Below are positions 17,607-56,123 of a DNA stretch of 64,000 bases, in pieces (position 1 is the first letter of the stretch; each line of letters opens with the position of its first letter). This stretch comes from Betaproteobacteria bacterium HGW-Betaproteobacteria-14 (GTDB lineage Bacteria > Pseudomonadota > Gammaproteobacteria > Burkholderiales > Rhodocyclaceae), in NCBI GenBank assembly GCA_002840845.1, contig PHCS01000006.1, positions 1 to 64,000 of the forward strand, read 5' to 3'. The notes below the pieces were generated by a model. That model was not told the DNA's origin. It saw only the letters and a list, made by a program, of their open reading frames with translations, and made no database searches. Both the position numbers and the translations under genes were made by a program.

Positions 17607-18380
17607 TCAGGCGGAGACTGCGCCGCCCTCCCTGTCGCCCCAGGTGAGGCGCCGGTAATCGAAACCGTTCTCCAGCGCCGGCTTGACGATGGCGAAGTAG
17701 GGCGAGATGTCGAAGTCGCGCGGCACGAACAGGCTGTGATGGCGGATGTGCAGGATATCGTCGTGGCAGTCGTTGCAGTCCTCGCGCGGCGCCGGCCGGC
17801 GCGTCACGTCGGGCAGGATGGGGTAACGCACCGACTGGAAGGCCTGGGCGATCAGGGTCGAGCAGATGGCGCGCGTGGGGTCCCCGCTGCCCAGCGCCAG
17901 CATGCGGCGGCGCCAGCGCGTCGGCACCGGCGGCTGCGGCAGCAGGTAGCGCACCAGGTCGATGATGTTCTTCAGGTCGTAGCGATGGCCGAGGCGGGCC
18001 AGGGCATAGCCGATGACCTTGTTGCGTTCCTCTTCGCCGAGGCCGACCGGCCGGCAGATGCGGGTGTGCATTTCGGCATATCTCTCCAGCGGCACGGCAA
18101 CGACGCCCTCCACCACATCGGCCTCCACCAGCCATTGCCCGGGTTCGCCGTCCGGCAGCGCCGTGCCGATGTAGAGCGCGGCATGCGACCAGGTCGACTG
18201 GCTGAGATACTTGATGGCCTTGCTGAAGCGGGTGTTGCCCTCCACCAGCAGCACGTCGCCCGGCGCGATGATCGCCGCGACGCCACGCGGATCGCAGGTC
18301 GCCAGCGGCTGGTAGCGCGGATCGGGCCGGCTCAGGTAGCGGGCCAGGCGGTCTCCCAGCCGGCTCATGATCGGGTTCAT
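17607..18380 (-). CDS. YiiX/YebB-like permuted NlpC/P60 (papain-fold) hydrolase
   Basis: GDVLLVEGNTRFSKAIKYLSQSTWSHAALYIG...GHRYDLKNIIDL...ICSTLIAQAFQSVRYPILP. Confidence 0.8.
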   Translation of the reverse strand: MNPIMSRLGDRLARYLSRPDPRYQPLATCDPRGVAAIIAPGDVLLVEGNTRFSKAIKYLSQSTWSHAALYIGTALPDGEPGQWLVEADVVEGVVAVPLERYAEMHTRICRPVGLGEEERNKVIGYALARLGHRYDLKNIIDLVRYLLPQPPVPTRWRRRMLALGSGDPTRAICSTLIAQAFQSVRYPILPDVTRRPAPREDCNDCHDDILHIRHHSLFVPRDFDISPYFAIVKPALENGFDYRRLTWGDREGGAVSA

Positions 18381-18511: not shown

Positions 18512-18540
18512 CGTAATTAAACCTTACCTGCCGCGACAAA
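18512..18540 (+). promoter_or_regulatory. putative ECF promoter CGTAAT-N17-GACAAA (P9)
   Basis: Upstream of micropeptide 1; -10-like GACAAA shared with P10. Confidence 0.5.
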
Positions 18541-18608
18541 GGGGCGCTGGCCGGATGGATCGGCCGGAAAGAAGCAACCCAACCCCAACTTTGCACAAGG
18601 AGACTGAC

Positions 18609-18752
18609 ATGAAAACCCTCTCGACCCTGCTCGCTGTACTGGCTACTGCTACCGCCCTGTTTGCCGCCCCGGCCGTTCAGGCTGCCGACAATCAGGAACG
18701 TGTGAATCCGCACGCCGTGCTGCCATTTCCCGGGGTGGAATTCGCGCGCTGA
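18609..18752 (+). CDS. secreted micropeptide 1 (paralog of 24128..24271)
   Basis: 47 aa MKTLSTLLAVLATATALFAAPAVQAADNQERVNPHAVLPFPGVEFAR; GGAGA SD; conserved 5' leader. Confidence 0.8.
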   Translation: MKTLSTLLAVLATATALFAAPAVQAADNQERVNPHAVLPFPGVEFAR

Positions 18753-18759
18753 GCCGGCG

Positions 18760-18798
18760 GGCGATGCGGCTCTTCCGTGAAGGGGGAGCCGCATCGCC
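18760..18798 (+). terminator. 13-bp perfect hairpin downstream of micropeptide 1
   Basis: GGCGATGCGGCTC / GAGCCGCATCGCC; no clear T-tract. Confidence 0.5.
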
Positions 18799-19030: not shown

Positions 19031-21037
19031 GTGAGCGGGCCATCGCATCTGCCTGAACGCCGCCCTGGCGAAAGTTCCAGGCGGCTGCTTGCCTACCTGA
19101 TCGTGACGGCCGCCTATTTTGCCGTCGGCGCAGTCTCGCTCGTCGTCTACCCGGCGGGCAGCGGCCTCGCCGGCATCTGGCCGGCGTCCGGCATAGCCGT
19201 CGCCGCCGTGCTGCTGCTGGGGCCGCAGGCGTCGCTGGCCGTGCTGGCGGGTGACCTCCTGGTCGGACTGTATGCCGGGCTGGCGCTTGCGCCGGCCCTC
19301 GTTTCCGCCCTGGCCGGCGCCGGAGAATCGCTGCTTGCCTGGTACCTGCTGACGCGCGTGCATCCGATCGACATGCGCCTGGAACGCGTGCGCGATGTCG
19401 CCGCCTTCATCGGCCTGGGCGTGGTGCTGAACGCCGTTCTCTGTTTCGTCGTCAGATATCTGCTCGCGGCGAATGGCCAGACGACGGAATTCATTGCCGC
19501 CGCCGCGCTCGGCCACGGGCTGGGCGTGCTGATCGTCACGCCCGTCGTCCTGAGCTGGCGCGTCCAGCCTGTTCCTGCCCCGTTTTCCGTCGAGCTGCTG
19601 CTGCTGCTGCTGGCCACGGTACTGATCAACGTCGCTACCTTCTCGACCTCGCTACTGACGCCCGGTTCGCCGCTGCTGTATGCCGTCTACCTCGTTGTGC
19701 TGTGGGCCGCGCTGCGCTTCGGTCCGCGCGAGACGTCTGCCGTGCTGCTGGTGACGGCGCTCTTCGCCATGTGGGCCGCCGGCCGCCGCAGCGGCCCCTT
19801 CCTGCTGGCCAGCCCCAGCGAAGCTCTGTCCTCGTTGGGGGTGTTCCTGCTGGTGTCGGCAGCGACGGCCCTGCTGCTGGCGGCGGCCGTGCGGGAAAAG
19901 CGCGCCTCCGACCTGCGCGTCGCCGAGAGCGAGAGCGTGCACCGCACGCTCATCGAGCAGATGGGCGAGGGCGTTGTAATGATTGACGCCGACGGGCGAC
20001 TAACCTACATCAGCGACCGCTTCTGCGAAATCTGCGCACGGCAGCGTGAGGGGCTGATGGGCGTGCGCCTGGCGGACATCGTGCGCGAGGCCGACCGGGA
20101 GGCGATCGAGGCGGCGCTGCAGCATTCCGTCATCGACAGCGACACGCGCATCGAGACCGTGCTCAGGCAGCCCTCGGGACAAGCGCTGGCAGTCTCTCTG
20201 GCGCTGCGCCGGCTGGACGATGCACAGGACGGCAAGGCAGTTACGCTGGCGATGCTGTCCGACGTGACGGAGCGCCGGCGAGCCGAGGAACTGGCCAGGC
20301 TGCATCTGCAGCAGTTGGCGCACATGGGAAGGCTTAAATCGATGGATGAAATGGCGATTGCGATGGCGCACGAAATCACCCAGCCCCTGACGGCGATCAT
20401 GAGCTATACCCAGGCCGGGCGGCGGCTCCTGAGCGACGGACACGCCGACGACCCGGCCCTCGCCGAGGCCCTGGCGGGCGCCAACGGGGAGGCGCGGCGG
20501 GCCCGCGCCATCGTGCATCGCATCCGCGATTTCGTGCAGAACCGTCCGGCACGGCCGGTCACCATCGAGGCGGCGTTCCTCGTCCGGGAGGCGATCCGTT
20601 TCGCCGAGCCGGAAGCGCGCCAGCATGGCGTCGAGCTGCGCCTGGCGCCAGGGGCCCCCTCCTGCAGCGTGCATGCCGACCCGATCCAGATCCAGCAGGT
20701 GCTGCTCAATCTGGTGCGCAACGCCGTCGAGGCCATTGCGGCGGCGGCTTGCCCGCGCCGCAGCGTCACGCTGCGCGTGCGCCTGCTCGAAGTGGAAAAC
20801 GAGGTCGAGTTTTCCGTCGAGGACAGCGGCCCGGGCCTGCCGGCGTCGCATGTCGAGCGGGTGTTCGAGCCCTTCTTCACCACCAAGGAGGACGGCGTCG
20901 GCATCGGGCTGGCGCTCTGCCATTCGATCGTCGATGCCCACGGCGGCAGCATCCGCGCCGAACCGCATCCGGACGGCGGCGCCGTCTTCCTCTTCAGCCT
21001 GCCTGTCATCGCTCATGCAACCCGAGCGCACGCCTGA
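19031..21037 (+). CDS. MASE1-PAS sensor histidine kinase
   Basis: N-terminal MASE1 (YLIVTAAYFAVGAVSLVVYPAGSGLAGIWPASGIAVAAVLLLG), PAS, HisKA AMAHEITQPLTAIMSYTQAGRR, HATPase motifs GVGIGLALCHSIVDAHGG. Confidence 0.92.
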   Translation: MSGPSHLPERRPGESSRRLLAYLIVTAAYFAVGAVSLVVYPAGSGLAGIWPASGIAVAAVLLLGPQASLAVLAGDLLVGLYAGLALAPALVSALAGAGESLLAWYLLTRVHPIDMRLERVRDVAAFIGLGVVLNAVLCFVVRYLLAANGQTTEFIAAAALGHGLGVLIVTPVVLSWRVQPVPAPFSVELLLLLLATVLINVATFSTSLLTPGSPLLYAVYLVVLWAALRFGPRETSAVLLVTALFAMWAAGRRSGPFLLASPSEALSSLGVFLLVSAATALLLAAAVREKRASDLRVAESESVHRTLIEQMGEGVVMIDADGRLTYISDRFCEICARQREGLMGVRLADIVREADREAIEAALQHSVIDSDTRIETVLRQPSGQALAVSLALRRLDDAQDGKAVTLAMLSDVTERRRAEELARLHLQQLAHMGRLKSMDEMAIAMAHEITQPLTAIMSYTQAGRRLLSDGHADDPALAEALAGANGEARRARAIVHRIRDFVQNRPARPVTIEAAFLVREAIRFAEPEARQHGVELRLAPGAPSCSVHADPIQIQQVLLNLVRNAVEAIAAAACPRRSVTLRVRLLEVENEVEFSVEDSGPGLPASHVERVFEPFFTTKEDGVGIGLALCHSIVDAHGGSIRAEPHPDGGAVFLFSLPVIAHATRAHA

Positions 21038-21842: not shown

Positions 21843-22094
21843 ATGAAACTGATCAAAATCGCATCCGCACTCGCACTCGGTGTCGCCCTTGTCGGGGGCG
21901 GCGTTGGTTCCGCCCTGGCCGACATTCCGGCCAATTCGCCGGTCTGGGCGATGGACGTTAACAAGGACAAGAAAATCAGCAAGGAGGAGTTCCTCGCCTA
22001 TCAGGCCAAGATGTTCGACAAGACCGCCGGCAGTAAAGGCTATTGCACATACGAGGAAATCCAACCCTTCTTCGAGTTCAAGAACCCGGCCTGA
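21843..22094 (+). CDS. small secreted EF-hand-like protein
   Basis: 83 aa; signal peptide; MDVNKDKKISKEEFLAY EF-hand loop. Confidence 0.75.
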   Translation: MKLIKIASALALGVALVGGGVGSALADIPANSPVWAMDVNKDKKISKEEFLAYQAKMFDKTAGSKGYCTYEEIQPFFEFKNPA

Positions 22095-22253
22095 TCGGTC
22101 GTCTGCATGGGGTGCCCGGATTGGTTGCCTGATCTGGGCCCGTCCAGCCTGACAACCTGACCCGCTGCATCCGTGACGGGTACGGCGGCGTTGTTTTATA
22201 GCCAGCTCCGACCAAGGAAGAAAGCTGCGTCTGATCCGAACGGGGACACATCA

Positions 22254-22739
22254 ATGAATCCGATCCGTAATGCGTTCATCGTGCTGTTGCTCGGCATGCT
22301 GGCACTCACCGCCCGGGCCGACCTCGGCCAGGGGGATAGGGCGCCGTGGCTGGATATCGACCTCATCGGCGGCAAGACGCTGGCCGCCAGCCAGCTGGAT
22401 GGCAAGGTGGTCGTTTACATGATCTGGGCCACCTGGTGCCCCATCTGCCTACACGAATTGCCCGAATTCCAGAAGGTGCACGACCGGTACAAATCCCGCG
22501 GCCTGGAAATCGTCGCCCTGTCGCTCGACGACAGTGCCGGCAAGGTAGCGGATTTCTGGCGACACCACGGCTATACCTTCCCGGTCGCCATGCGCTCCGA
22601 TGAGGCCCGTCAGGGTTTTGGCAATATCAAGGGCACGCCTACCATTTTCATCGTCGATCGCAAGGGCAAAGTGGCCTACAAGCATCTCGGCGGCATGCCG
22701 GACGGCGAGCTGGAAAAACGGATCGAGGCGTTGCTTTAG
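22254..22739 (+). CDS. TlpA/ResA-like periplasmic thiol-disulfide oxidoreductase
   Basis: Signal peptide; MIWATWCPICLHELPEFQKVHDRYKSRGLEIVALSLD; GTPTIFIVDRKG. Confidence 0.9.
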   Translation: MNPIRNAFIVLLLGMLALTARADLGQGDRAPWLDIDLIGGKTLAASQLDGKVVVYMIWATWCPICLHELPEFQKVHDRYKSRGLEIVALSLDDSAGKVADFWRHHGYTFPVAMRSDEARQGFGNIKGTPTIFIVDRKGKVAYKHLGGMPDGELEKRIEALL

Positions 22740-24030: not shown

Positions 24031-24059
24031 TGTAATAAATCGTCTCCTGCGGCGACAAA
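24031..24059 (+). promoter_or_regulatory. putative ECF promoter TGTAAT-N17-GACAAA (P10)
   Basis: Upstream of micropeptide 2, same arrangement as P9. Confidence 0.5.
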
Positions 24060-24127
24060 GGGGCGCTGGCCGGATGGATCGGCCGGAGGGAAGCAACCCA
24101 ACCCCAACTTTGCACAAGGAGACTGAC

Positions 24128-24271
24128 ATGAAGACCATTTCCACCCTGCTGGCCGCACTGGCCACTGCTGCCGCGCTGTTTGCCGCCCCGGCCGTCCAGG
24201 CTGCCGACAATCAGGAACGTGTGAATCCGCACGCCGTGTTGCCTTACCTGGGATCGGAATTCGCACGCTAG
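24128..24271 (+). CDS. secreted micropeptide 2 (paralog of 18609..18752)
   Basis: 47 aa MKTISTLLAALATAAALFAAPAVQAADNQERVNPHAVLPYLGSEFAR. Confidence 0.8.
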   Translation: MKTISTLLAALATAAALFAAPAVQAADNQERVNPHAVLPYLGSEFAR

Positions 24272-24285
24272 GCGTTGTCTGAAAA

Positions 24286-24330
24286 AGCCCTGTCCGCAGC
24301 CCCGCTGCGGACAGGGCTTTTCTTCTTTTT
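24286..24330 (+). terminator. rho-independent terminator
   Basis: AGCCCTGTCCGCAGC-CCC-GCTGCGGACAGGGCT followed by T-rich TTTCTTCTTTTT. Confidence 0.9.
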
Positions 24331-53922: not shown

Positions 53923-54162
53923 ATGGCCTTTCACGCAAACCTTTTGAGCATCGCCTGCAGGCGCCCCATCGTACTGGCCGCGCTGCGCGTGGCGCTGGTG
54001 GTGGGGACGGTGCTGAACCTGATCAACCAGGGCGAGCGGCTGCTCGCCGGATGGCCGCCCTCATGGTTCCACGTTGCGCTCAACTATCTGGTGCCGTTCT
54101 GCGTCTCCGGCTACAGCGCGGCGTGCAACGAACTGCGCCGCAACGAGGAGGGCGCCCCGTGA
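53923..54162 (+). CDS. NrtS-like small membrane protein
   Basis: 79 aa; ALRVALVVGTVLNLINQGERLLAGWPPSWFHVALNYLVPFCVSGYSAA. Confidence 0.75.
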   Translation: MAFHANLLSIACRRPIVLAALRVALVVGTVLNLINQGERLLAGWPPSWFHVALNYLVPFCVSGYSAACNELRRNEEGAP

Positions 54163-54761
54163 CGGAAATGCACGACGGACCGATCATGGACGATGCGTAT
54201 ATCAGGGCGCTGCGGCCCGGCATGATCCGCTTCGCCCGGATGCAGCTGCGCGATGACGAACTGGCGGAGGACGTCGTCCAGGATGCGCTGATCGCGGCGA
54301 TGCACGGCGCGAAGGGCTTCGCCGGCCGCTCGGCGTTCGACACCTGGGTGCTGGCCATCCTGCGCAACAAGATCGCGGACGCGATCCGGCTGCGGAGCCG
54401 CTCGATCAACGTTTCGGCGCTGGCACCGGAGGAGGAGGGCCTCGACCAGGCGTTCGAGGCCCTGTTCAAGCCGAACGCGTACTGGTCGCCCCAGTCGCGT
54501 CCGCGCGACTGGGGCGATCCGGAGGATTCGTTGCAACGCGACCAGTTCTGGATCGTCTTCGAAGCCTGCCTGAAGCACCTGCCCGAGAACACCGCGCGCA
54601 TTTTCATGATGCGCGAGTTCCTCGAGTTCGACACCTCCGAAATCTGCAAGGAACTCGCCATCAGCAGCGGCAACTGCCACGTCATCCTGCACCGGGCGCG
54701 CAACGCCCTGCGCGGCTGCCTCGAAGAGAACTGGTTCGACAAGGGAGAGCAAGCATGCTGA
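54159..54761 (+). CDS. ECF-type sigma factor (tandem pair, copy A)
   Basis: Region 2 LRDDELAEDVVQDALIAAMHGAKGFAGRSAFDTWVLAILRNKIADAIR; region 4 ARIFMMREFLEFDTSEICKELAISSGNCHVILHRARNALRGCLE. True start may be ATG 54186. Confidence 0.92.
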   Translation: MTEMHDGPIMDDAYIRALRPGMIRFARMQLRDDELAEDVVQDALIAAMHGAKGFAGRSAFDTWVLAILRNKIADAIRLRSRSINVSALAPEEEGLDQAFEALFKPNAYWSPQSRPRDWGDPEDSLQRDQFWIVFEACLKHLPENTARIFMMREFLEFDTSEICKELAISSGNCHVILHRARNALRGCLEENWFDKGEQAC

Positions 54762-54961
54762 GCTGCAAGGAGGTGACCCGGCTCCTTTCCGAGTCGCAGG
54801 ATCGGGAACTGACTCTGTTCGAGGGCTTGCAGCTCAGGATGCATCTGGTGATGTGCAAGGGCTGCGCCAACTTCGACAGGCAGATGAAGTTCCTGCGCCG
54901 GGTGAGCCGGCAGTATGCGGACAAGACGGTACGGGCCGACAGACCCGACCGCGGAGATTGA
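54755..54961 (+). CDS. zf-HC2-type small anti-sigma factor
   Basis: MLSCKEVTRLLSESQDRELTLFEGLQLRMHLVMCKGCANFDRQMKFL. Confidence 0.85.
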   Translation: MLSCKEVTRLLSESQDRELTLFEGLQLRMHLVMCKGCANFDRQMKFLRRVSRQYADKTVRADRPDRGD

Positions 54962-55015
54962 GGAGGCGCGACGCGATCGGGCTTCGCCCGGCTTCCGCCG
55001 TTTATTGCCCTGCCC

Positions 55016-55044
55016 TGTAATAAACCGCTTCGTGAGACGACCAA
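55016..55044 (+). promoter_or_regulatory. putative ECF promoter TGTAAT-N17-GACCAA (P8)
   Basis: Upstream of small peptide 55092. Confidence 0.45.
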
Positions 55045-55091
55045 GGGACGTGAATCGATCCCCGCGATATCCCGCGGGAAGGAGCGTCGCC

Positions 55092-55277
55092 ATGAAGAAG
55101 ACCATATTGATCCTGATGTTTGCCATGGGTGCCTTGCCCGCCGCTGCCTCGCCGGGAAGCCGTTGCGCCTTGTCGGATGCCGGCGATGGCAGTCGTACCG
55201 TTATCGCCAGAATCAGCCCGACCAACCCGAACGACCCGCTGTTTCCGCCGGGCCAATGGCCCAGATGCATGGGGTAG
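55092..55277 (+). CDS. small secreted peptide, possible relative of the micropeptides
   Basis: 61 aa MKKTILILMFAMGALPAAASPGSRCALSDAGDGSRTVIARISPTNPNDPLFPPGQWPRCMG; SD GGAAGGAG upstream. Confidence 0.7.
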   Translation: MKKTILILMFAMGALPAAASPGSRCALSDAGDGSRTVIARISPTNPNDPLFPPGQWPRCMG

Positions 55278-55359
55278 GGCTCGTTGATGGCCGCTGTAAT
55301 GTTTTTGGCGCTGATCCGGTCTCATGGGATAATCCGAACGTCCCGAAGGAGACCGAACC

Positions 55360-55932
55360 ATGGCACCGATAGCCAAAGAGGACCTGGCGGAGCTGCGCCG
55401 CTACCTGATGCGTTTCGCCCTGCTGCACCTGCGCGACCGGAACCGTGCGGAGGACGCGGTGCAGGAGACCCTGACGGCGGCGCTGGAGCGCGAGAACGGG
55501 TTTTCCGGCGGCTCCGCCGTGCGTACCTGGCTGACCGGGATACTCAAGCACAAGATCATCGATGTCTTCCGCAGGCAGCGGCGCGAGCTGGCGACGAGCG
55601 AACTGGCCGACGACGATGCTGAAGGACGCGATCCGGACGCCCTCTTCGACGCGGCCGGCGCCTGGCAGACGCCGCCGGCAAGCTGGGGAGACCCGGCCAA
55701 GATGCTCGAACAGAAGCGCTTCATGGAAGCGCTGGAGAAATGCAACGGCGCGCTGCCGGAGAGGCTCGCCCAGGTGTTCACCCTGCGGGAGGTGACGGGG
55801 CTGACGACGGAAGAGATCTGCGCCGAGCTCGGCATCACGCCGAACAACTGCAATGTCATGCTGTACCGCGCACGCATGGGGCTGCGCGAATGCCTGGAAA
55901 AGAACTGGATGAGCGAAGGGAGGCCGTCATGA
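55360..55932 (+). CDS. ECF-type sigma factor (tandem pair, copy B)
   Basis: RDRNRAEDAVQETLTAALERENGFSGGSAVRTWLTGILKHKIIDVFRR; AQVFTLREVTGLTTEEICAELGITPNNCNVMLYRARMGLRECLE. Confidence 0.92.
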   Translation: MAPIAKEDLAELRRYLMRFALLHLRDRNRAEDAVQETLTAALERENGFSGGSAVRTWLTGILKHKIIDVFRRQRRELATSELADDDAEGRDPDALFDAAGAWQTPPASWGDPAKMLEQKRFMEALEKCNGALPERLAQVFTLREVTGLTTEEICAELGITPNNCNVMLYRARMGLRECLEKNWMSEGRPS

Positions 55933-56123
55933 TCAGCTGCAAGGAGGTGTCGCGACTTGTCTCGGTGTCCCTCGACCGGCCTCTCGCGCTGCGCGAACGT
56001 TTCTGGTTGCGGCTGCATCTGTGGCGTTGCCGGAGCTGCGGCAATTTTGCCGAACAGATGACCGCGATGCGTGCCGCGATGCGCCGGCTGGCGAGCGGTC
56101 CGGACGATCCGCCCGGCCGGTGA
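55929..56123 (+). CDS. zf-HC2-type small anti-sigma factor
   Basis: MISCKEVSRLVSVSLDRPLALRERFWLRLHLWRCRSCGNFAEQM. Confidence 0.85.
   Translation: MISCKEVSRLVSVSLDRPLALRERFWLRLHLWRCRSCGNFAEQMTAMRAAMRRLASGPDDPPGR

Follow-up and report, generated by a model that had tools for sequence, protein, structure and literature searches.

Two exported micropeptide genes in a Rhodocyclaceae genome as probable members of a small ECF sigma factor/zinc anti-sigma stress regulon

Two paralogous genes for short exported peptides (type A, peptides 1 and 2) in the genome of Betaproteobacteria bacterium HGW-Betaproteobacteria-14 are probably effector genes of a small MseR/RsrA-like stress regulon, the ECF sigma factors and zinc anti-sigma proteins (ZAS) of which are encoded by genes some 30 kb distant within the window, i.e., the 64,000-nucleotide stretch of DNA analyzed here (Table 1). 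A first-pass annotation of peptide 1 had read its 5' leader as more constrained than its coding region, and hence as a possible regulatory or dual-function RNA next to a MASE1 histidine kinase.

Table 1. Features of the window discussed in the text
Feature	Position	Strand	Basis or remarks
C92 permuted papain-like amidase, divergent to peptide 1	17607..18380	-	Pfam PF05708
ECF-type promoter, peptide 1	18513..18541	+	-35 GTAAT 18513-18517, N16, -10 CGACAAAG 18534-18541
Predicted 5' UTR of peptide 1	18547..18608	+	Putative start ~6 nt after -10 box, by analogy with neisserial sigmaE (PMC2893595)
Leader hairpin, peptide 1, predicted mRNA 5' end	18547..18567	+	Fold; C-G replaced by U-A in G008, one compensatory pair
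Peptide 1 (type A), 47 aa	18609..18752	+	MKTLSTLLAVLATATALFAAPAVQA/ADNQERVNPHAVLPFPGVEFAR; SD AAGGAG 18597-18602
17-bp hairpin after peptide 1 stop, probable mRNA 3' end, without T tract	18760..18798	+	-40.5 kcal/mol, z = -6.65
MASE1-PAS histidine kinase, neighbour only	19031..21037	+	Pfam; separated from peptide 1 by 3' hairpin
ECF-type promoter, peptide 2	24032..24060	+	GTAAT-N16-CGACAAAG
Leader hairpin, peptide 2	24066..24086	+	Fold
Peptide 2 (type A), 47 aa	24128..24271	+	MKTISTLLAALATAAALFAAPAVQA/ADNQERVNPHAVLPYLGSEFAR
Predicted intrinsic terminator downstream of peptide 2, with T tract and a stem of 18 bp	24283..24321	+	z = -6.66
NrtS-family small membrane protein, cluster start	53923..54162	+	NCBIfam NF038050
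ECF sigma factor 1 (ECF1)	54159..54761	+	Pfam Sigma70_r2, r4_2; TIGR02943 above cut-off
Zinc anti-sigma 1 (ZAS1), C4...H-x3-C-x2-C	54755..54961	+	zf-HC2; NF052368 antisigmaE above cut-off
Third ECF-type promoter, before peptide 3	55017..55045	+	GTAAT-N16-CGACCAAG
Peptide 3 (type B), 61 aa	55092..55277	+	Signal peptide then ...RISPTNPNDPLFPPGQWPRCMG; homologues in G007, G008, G011 with same promoter
ECF sigma factor 2 (ECF2)	55360..55932	+	TIGR02943 above cut-off
Zinc anti-sigma 2 (ZAS2)	55929..56123	+	NF052368 above cut-off

The conserved block upstream of the type A genes is real, and its 5' part, where the first-pass annotation noted just a -10-like element, most clearly holds an ECF promoter. 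The exact pattern GTAAT-N16-CGAC[A/C]AAGG occurs three times in the 3.23 Mb genome, always within the window and always upstream of a small exported peptide, while the reversed pattern used as a control gave 0 matches in the same genome. Allowing one mismatch added matches at background level only, and relaxing the spacing yielded mostly background. Across five type A upstream regions (two in the window, one in G008, and two in G011) the invariant elements were GTAAT, the 16-nt spacer length, CGAC, and [AC]AAGGGGCGC. The form looked for before targets of an ECF/ZAS regulon, GTAA..N16-17..CG[AT]C, is thus present. A scan for sigma-70 promoters retrieved none before the type A and type B peptides, and no copy of the ECF-type promoter was found upstream of ECF1. 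Judged by its sequence, the window promoter shares its form with those of Caulobacter sigmaF (GTAACC-N16-CGAA; PMC3511200), Brucella BcrS (TGTAAC-N17-CGAA; PMC8315932), and neisserial sigmaE (consensus GTMAGBWTT/CGTCTAAH; PMC2893595). A CGACCAAGG box at 22209, before a redoxin gene, was discarded as a further candidate; it lacks a GTAA -35 element, and the G011 region has no equivalent box.

Searches with Pfam and NCBIfam profiles identified ECF genes adjoining a small C...H-x3-C-x2-C protein at 54159-54961 and 55360-56123, and the type B gene sits between these two pairs, 30 kb from the type A genes. The region 53923-56123 thereby comprises an NrtS-like gene followed by two tandem ECF/ZAS pairs, and the order ECF-peptide-ECF was also observed in G011 and G008. 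A survey of 16 genomes of the genus located GTAAN-N16-CGAC[AC]AAGG promoters in four of them (G000, G007, G008, and G011), in every case ahead of a type A or type B gene. ECF1 was detected in six of the 16; the peptides occurred in four of these six and in none of the ten genomes without it (hypergeometric p about 0.008, not corrected for kinship). A scan of the genome contigs with the type B pattern retrieved three loci only, on contigs of G007, G008, and G011. In G008, a divergent C92 amidase, type A, NrtS, ECF1, ZAS1, type B, and ECF2 follow one another in a single cluster. This order indicates that the conserved partners of the peptides are the ECF pairs instead of the MASE1 kinase.

The proposed link to the kinase holds as adjacency, and it is positional only. 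Both type A copies flank a block of kinase, regulator, redoxin, and porin genes, here as well as in G011, and the peptide could on this basis be a ligand or target of a MASE1 histidine kinase/response regulator system. We regard this as quite improbable: the type A gene of G008 adjoins NrtS-ECF-ZAS genes instead, a strong hairpin follows each transcript and lies between peptide 1 and the kinase, and the promoter is of the ECF type and common to the peptide of the ECF cluster. Between the kinase and the porin we also noted genes for a small exported EF-hand-like protein (21844-22095) and a ResA/TlpA-like redoxin (22173-22739). In all three genomes that have type A (the one containing the window, G008, and G011) a C92 amidase gene is divergent to it, and this amidase is a possible functional partner.

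Type A itself was claimed to be a short exported peptide, and this is borne out for a real, selected product. Estimates of dN/dS were about 0.14 between the two window copies and about 0.12 and 0.10 between G008 and copies 1 and 2, respectively, which supports purifying selection on a peptide with a predicted export signal. The search of relatives recovered type A in its own genome, G008, and G011. Among 399 family-level genomes these were accompanied by five weak matches, which we judged to be mere signal-peptide matches inside long open frames; among 399 order-level genomes only its own genome had type A, and neither type A nor type B was found in plasmids or phages. No Pfam or NCBIfam family matched either type, and the DUF2282 signature and Cys core of bufferins were not found. 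The mature part of type A has 0 Cys and 0 Met, so that it is not a Met-rich peptide of the MrpX/BcrX kind. Homology between types A and B was rejected; their common R-[IV]..NP....P look is no sign of common descent because a profile comparison aligned the signal peptide only (probability 4.5%).

The two type A genes lie in a 238-nt repeat unit (18513-18750 and 24032-24269, 88% identical) that is present twice in the 3.23 Mb genome, and beyond which the flanks are unrelated (35% identity). The earlier observation of near-identical leaders and many differing codons was confirmed: from CGACAAAG to the ATG, 2 of 71 positions differ (AA versus GG), as opposed to 11 of 72 in signal-peptide codons 2-25. 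The hairpin GGCCG-GATGGAT-CGGCC and the SD (AAGGAG, 18597-18602) are likewise both present. The mature part ADNQERVNPHAVLP was said to be identical in both copies, which is true of the protein but not of the DNA (40/42 nt). Codons 26-37 (mature core) show 0/36 differences and codons 38-47 (tail) 10/30. Within this genome the contrast between leader and signal codons exceeds sampling noise (p = 0.017), as does that between leader plus mature core and signal plus tail (p = 9e-6), both with regions picked post hoc. The coding region is patchy rather than uniformly less conserved, and its mature core matches better than the leader.

Comparison with G011 and G008 indicates, at least in part, how this pattern arose. 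In the upstream orthologous flanks, 35 informative sites group the four copies by locus (window copy 1 with G011a, window copy 2 with G011b) and 2 by genome, whereas 4 sites of the leader group by genome and none by locus, as do 2 and none, respectively, in codons 1-21. Since flanks group by locus and leaders by genome, the copies have been homogenised within each genome, a signature of gene conversion that at least partly explains the identity of the leaders. Against G008, the claim that the leader is more constrained than the ORF does not stand: differences amount to 15-17/71 in the leader and 36-39/138 in the ORF (p = 0.3-0.9). With about 0.21-0.24 differences per site versus G008, compared with a pS of about 0.61, the leader does change more slowly than synonymous positions and is hence constrained, to a degree similar to that of amino-acid-changing sites. 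Much of this constraint is due to the -10 box, hairpin, and SD. Sequence exchange between the paralogues, added to the usual constraint on a promoter, a hairpin, and an SD, thus explains the unusual similarity of the leaders.

In G011 the two copies match exactly between the -10 box and codon 21, after which they diverge abruptly. Together with the arrangement of the copies as direct repeats flanking a gene block, this would fit a small mobile or conversion-prone cassette of promoter, leader, and signal peptide, conserved through copying and not through function. Such a reading is very unlikely given just two copies per genome, selection on the coding sequence, and orthologous positions common to the genomes. 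Both G011 copies (L010, 8749-8880 and 14134-14300) keep the promoter, leader, and signal codons and are altered after codon 21; one enters a perfect palindrome, and the other apparently contains a frameshift ahead of a still recognisable ...RINPFAALPYYG... end. These alterations may represent decay or assembly error in this MAG.

The leader was further analyzed as RNA. All four distinct leaders fold an 8-bp-class stem, which in G008 has one compensatory pair and has lost two basal pairs. The covariation analysis that had been suggested thus returned one compensatory pair, a level matched by 119 of 500 shuffles in an alignment of only 4 distinct sequences. Predicted folds of the window leaders were no more stable than those of shuffled sequences (z 0.08 and -0.85), and an Rfam scan of the window gave 0 matches. 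With transcription starting ~6 nt downstream of the -10 box, the stem would form the 5' end of the mRNA, as expected of a stabilising stem-loop. Very strong hairpins follow the peptide genes, with T tracts in two of three, and would bound short monocistronic mRNAs, the transcription of which we infer. A dual-function small RNA, with the 5' hairpin and a C-rich stretch (CAACCCAACCCCAAC) acting on target mRNAs and with the peptide as a second product, could draw on this short predicted transcript with its strong 3' hairpin, the compensatory pair, a leader slower than synonymous sites, and the report that the neisserial sigmaE regulon includes a small RNA (PMC7907618). We nevertheless consider it unlikely: besides the Rfam and folding results, gene conversion at least partly explains the identity within the genome, leader constraint does not exceed that of the ORF against G008, and promoter, hairpin, and SD already span many invariant positions. 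Far less credible still is that the ATG in the hairpin loop (18555) is the true start and the leader is conserved as coding sequence. The window copies and G011 do have this ATG in the reading frame of the peptide, but in G008, where the leader is 2 nt longer, that frame runs into a TGA upstream of the peptide; moreover, the ATG has no good SD and would make the signal peptide begin 18 residues in. The regulatory RNA proposed by the first-pass annotation is therefore unsupported, and the conserved leader is best read as mainly a stress promoter plus an mRNA start.

Outside the genus, the exact pattern TGTAA-N17-CGACCAAGG was found in eight genomes versus five matches of the reversed control (399 family genomes, about 383 of them outside the genus). 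This is barely above the control, so not all such matches are real; the one in G297 lies inside a gene. Naming the downstream genes by eye from their sequences gave DUF2282-like (G088 and G413), ArsS-like radical SAM (G327 and G372), DUF1223-like (G231), MsrA (G072), and cytochrome b561-like (G135) genes. Specifically, the order in G088 is ECF-ZAS-promoter-DUF2282-MNIO-DUF2063-DoxX-like, G413 has a related promoter site before an MsrB-like gene near a ZAS, and in G231 a ZAS is followed by the DUF2282-like gene. The NF052368 anti-sigma scored above cut-off in 12 of 12 promoter-bearing genomes and 4 of 20 others (p = 1.6e-5, for a hand-picked set not corrected for kinship). The occurrence of this promoter form before DUF2282-like, ArsS-like radical SAM, MsrA, and DUF1223-like genes in other genomes of the family points to a possible family-wide ECF/ZAS regulon.

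Related switches are known. For Haemophilus RpoE2/HrsE and Neisseria sigmaE, the controlled genes are MsrAB and a DoxX/DUF2063 cluster (PMC7907618), Caulobacter sigmaF has a short exported DUF2282 peptide as a target (PMC3511200), and in Brucella BcrS drives a short periplasmic peptide (PMC8315932); these or related regulons include bufferin genes, MsrAB, or a Met-rich peptide (PMC3511200, PMC8315932, PMC7907618). The Haemophilus and Neisseria targets, together with the promoter context in the family, suggest a switch of known kind with the peptides probably as local targets. Like Neisseria sigmaE/MseR and Haemophilus RpoE2/HrsE, the window system combines an ECF with a soluble ZAS of 60-70 aa bearing Cys4 and H-x3-C-x2-C motifs, its promoter is similar in form and spacing, and relatives in the family use that promoter before MsrA, MsrB-like, and bufferin-like genes. 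Unlike them, it has two ECF-ZAS pairs in tandem and a predicted regulon of small exported peptides only, from two undescribed families. It shares with the bufferin regulon of Caulobacter sigmaF/NrsF (ECF16) the GTAACC-N16-CGAA promoter form and a short exported peptide target; on the other hand, its anti-sigma is a soluble ZAS rather than the membrane protein NrsF (DUF1109), type A lacks Cys, and its own genome yielded no MNIO gene. As in Brucella BcrS/AbcS-BcrXQP and the Met-rich system of Azospira (HOCl resistance), a short periplasmic peptide is ECF-driven (here by prediction), whereas the mature type A peptide lacks Met and no Msr gene was noted beside the peptide genes.

According to the mechanism that we propose, a cytoplasmic ZAS would, as expected from its family, hold the ECF sigma factor until a redox, thiol, or metal signal frees it. 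Polymerase with the ECF1 or ECF2 sigma would start at the GTAAT-N16-CGAC[A/C]AAG promoter seen in the sequence, and the resulting short monocistronic mRNAs would extend from near the leader hairpin to the 3' hairpin. The 5' hairpin would most likely stabilise the mRNA start ahead of the SD. Sec export and cleavage after VQA would then release a 22-aa proline-containing envelope peptide. In what is the weakest step, this peptide might be a metal or oxidant sink or shield, by analogy with bufferin and MrpX/BcrX, or a binder of an envelope component; with neither Cys nor Met in the mature part of type A, the sink analogy has no residue-level support.

A search for the MNIO partner (DUF692, PF05114) gave no match in G000, G007, and G011 and one on another contig in G008; three of the four genomes of the genus that encode the peptides thus lack it, while eight of the 12 others have it, a difference that is not significant. 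The peptides may replace bufferins in this genus. More tentatively, and with somewhat less than even confidence, we suggest that type A (...NPHAVxP[FY]xGxEFAR) and type B (...SPT[ND]PNDPLFPPxQWP[RK]C), both previously undescribed, together account for all direct targets of a duplicated ECF/ZAS stress switch, in the regulatory slot held by bufferins in relatives, and form a new class of envelope stress peptides. More generally, gene conversion between paralogues can mimic a leader that is more constrained than its ORF. These results tie orphan micropeptides to a defined stress switch with a testable promoter, and suggest that ECF/ZAS systems can be devoted to small exported peptides that are neither bufferins nor Met-rich peptides.
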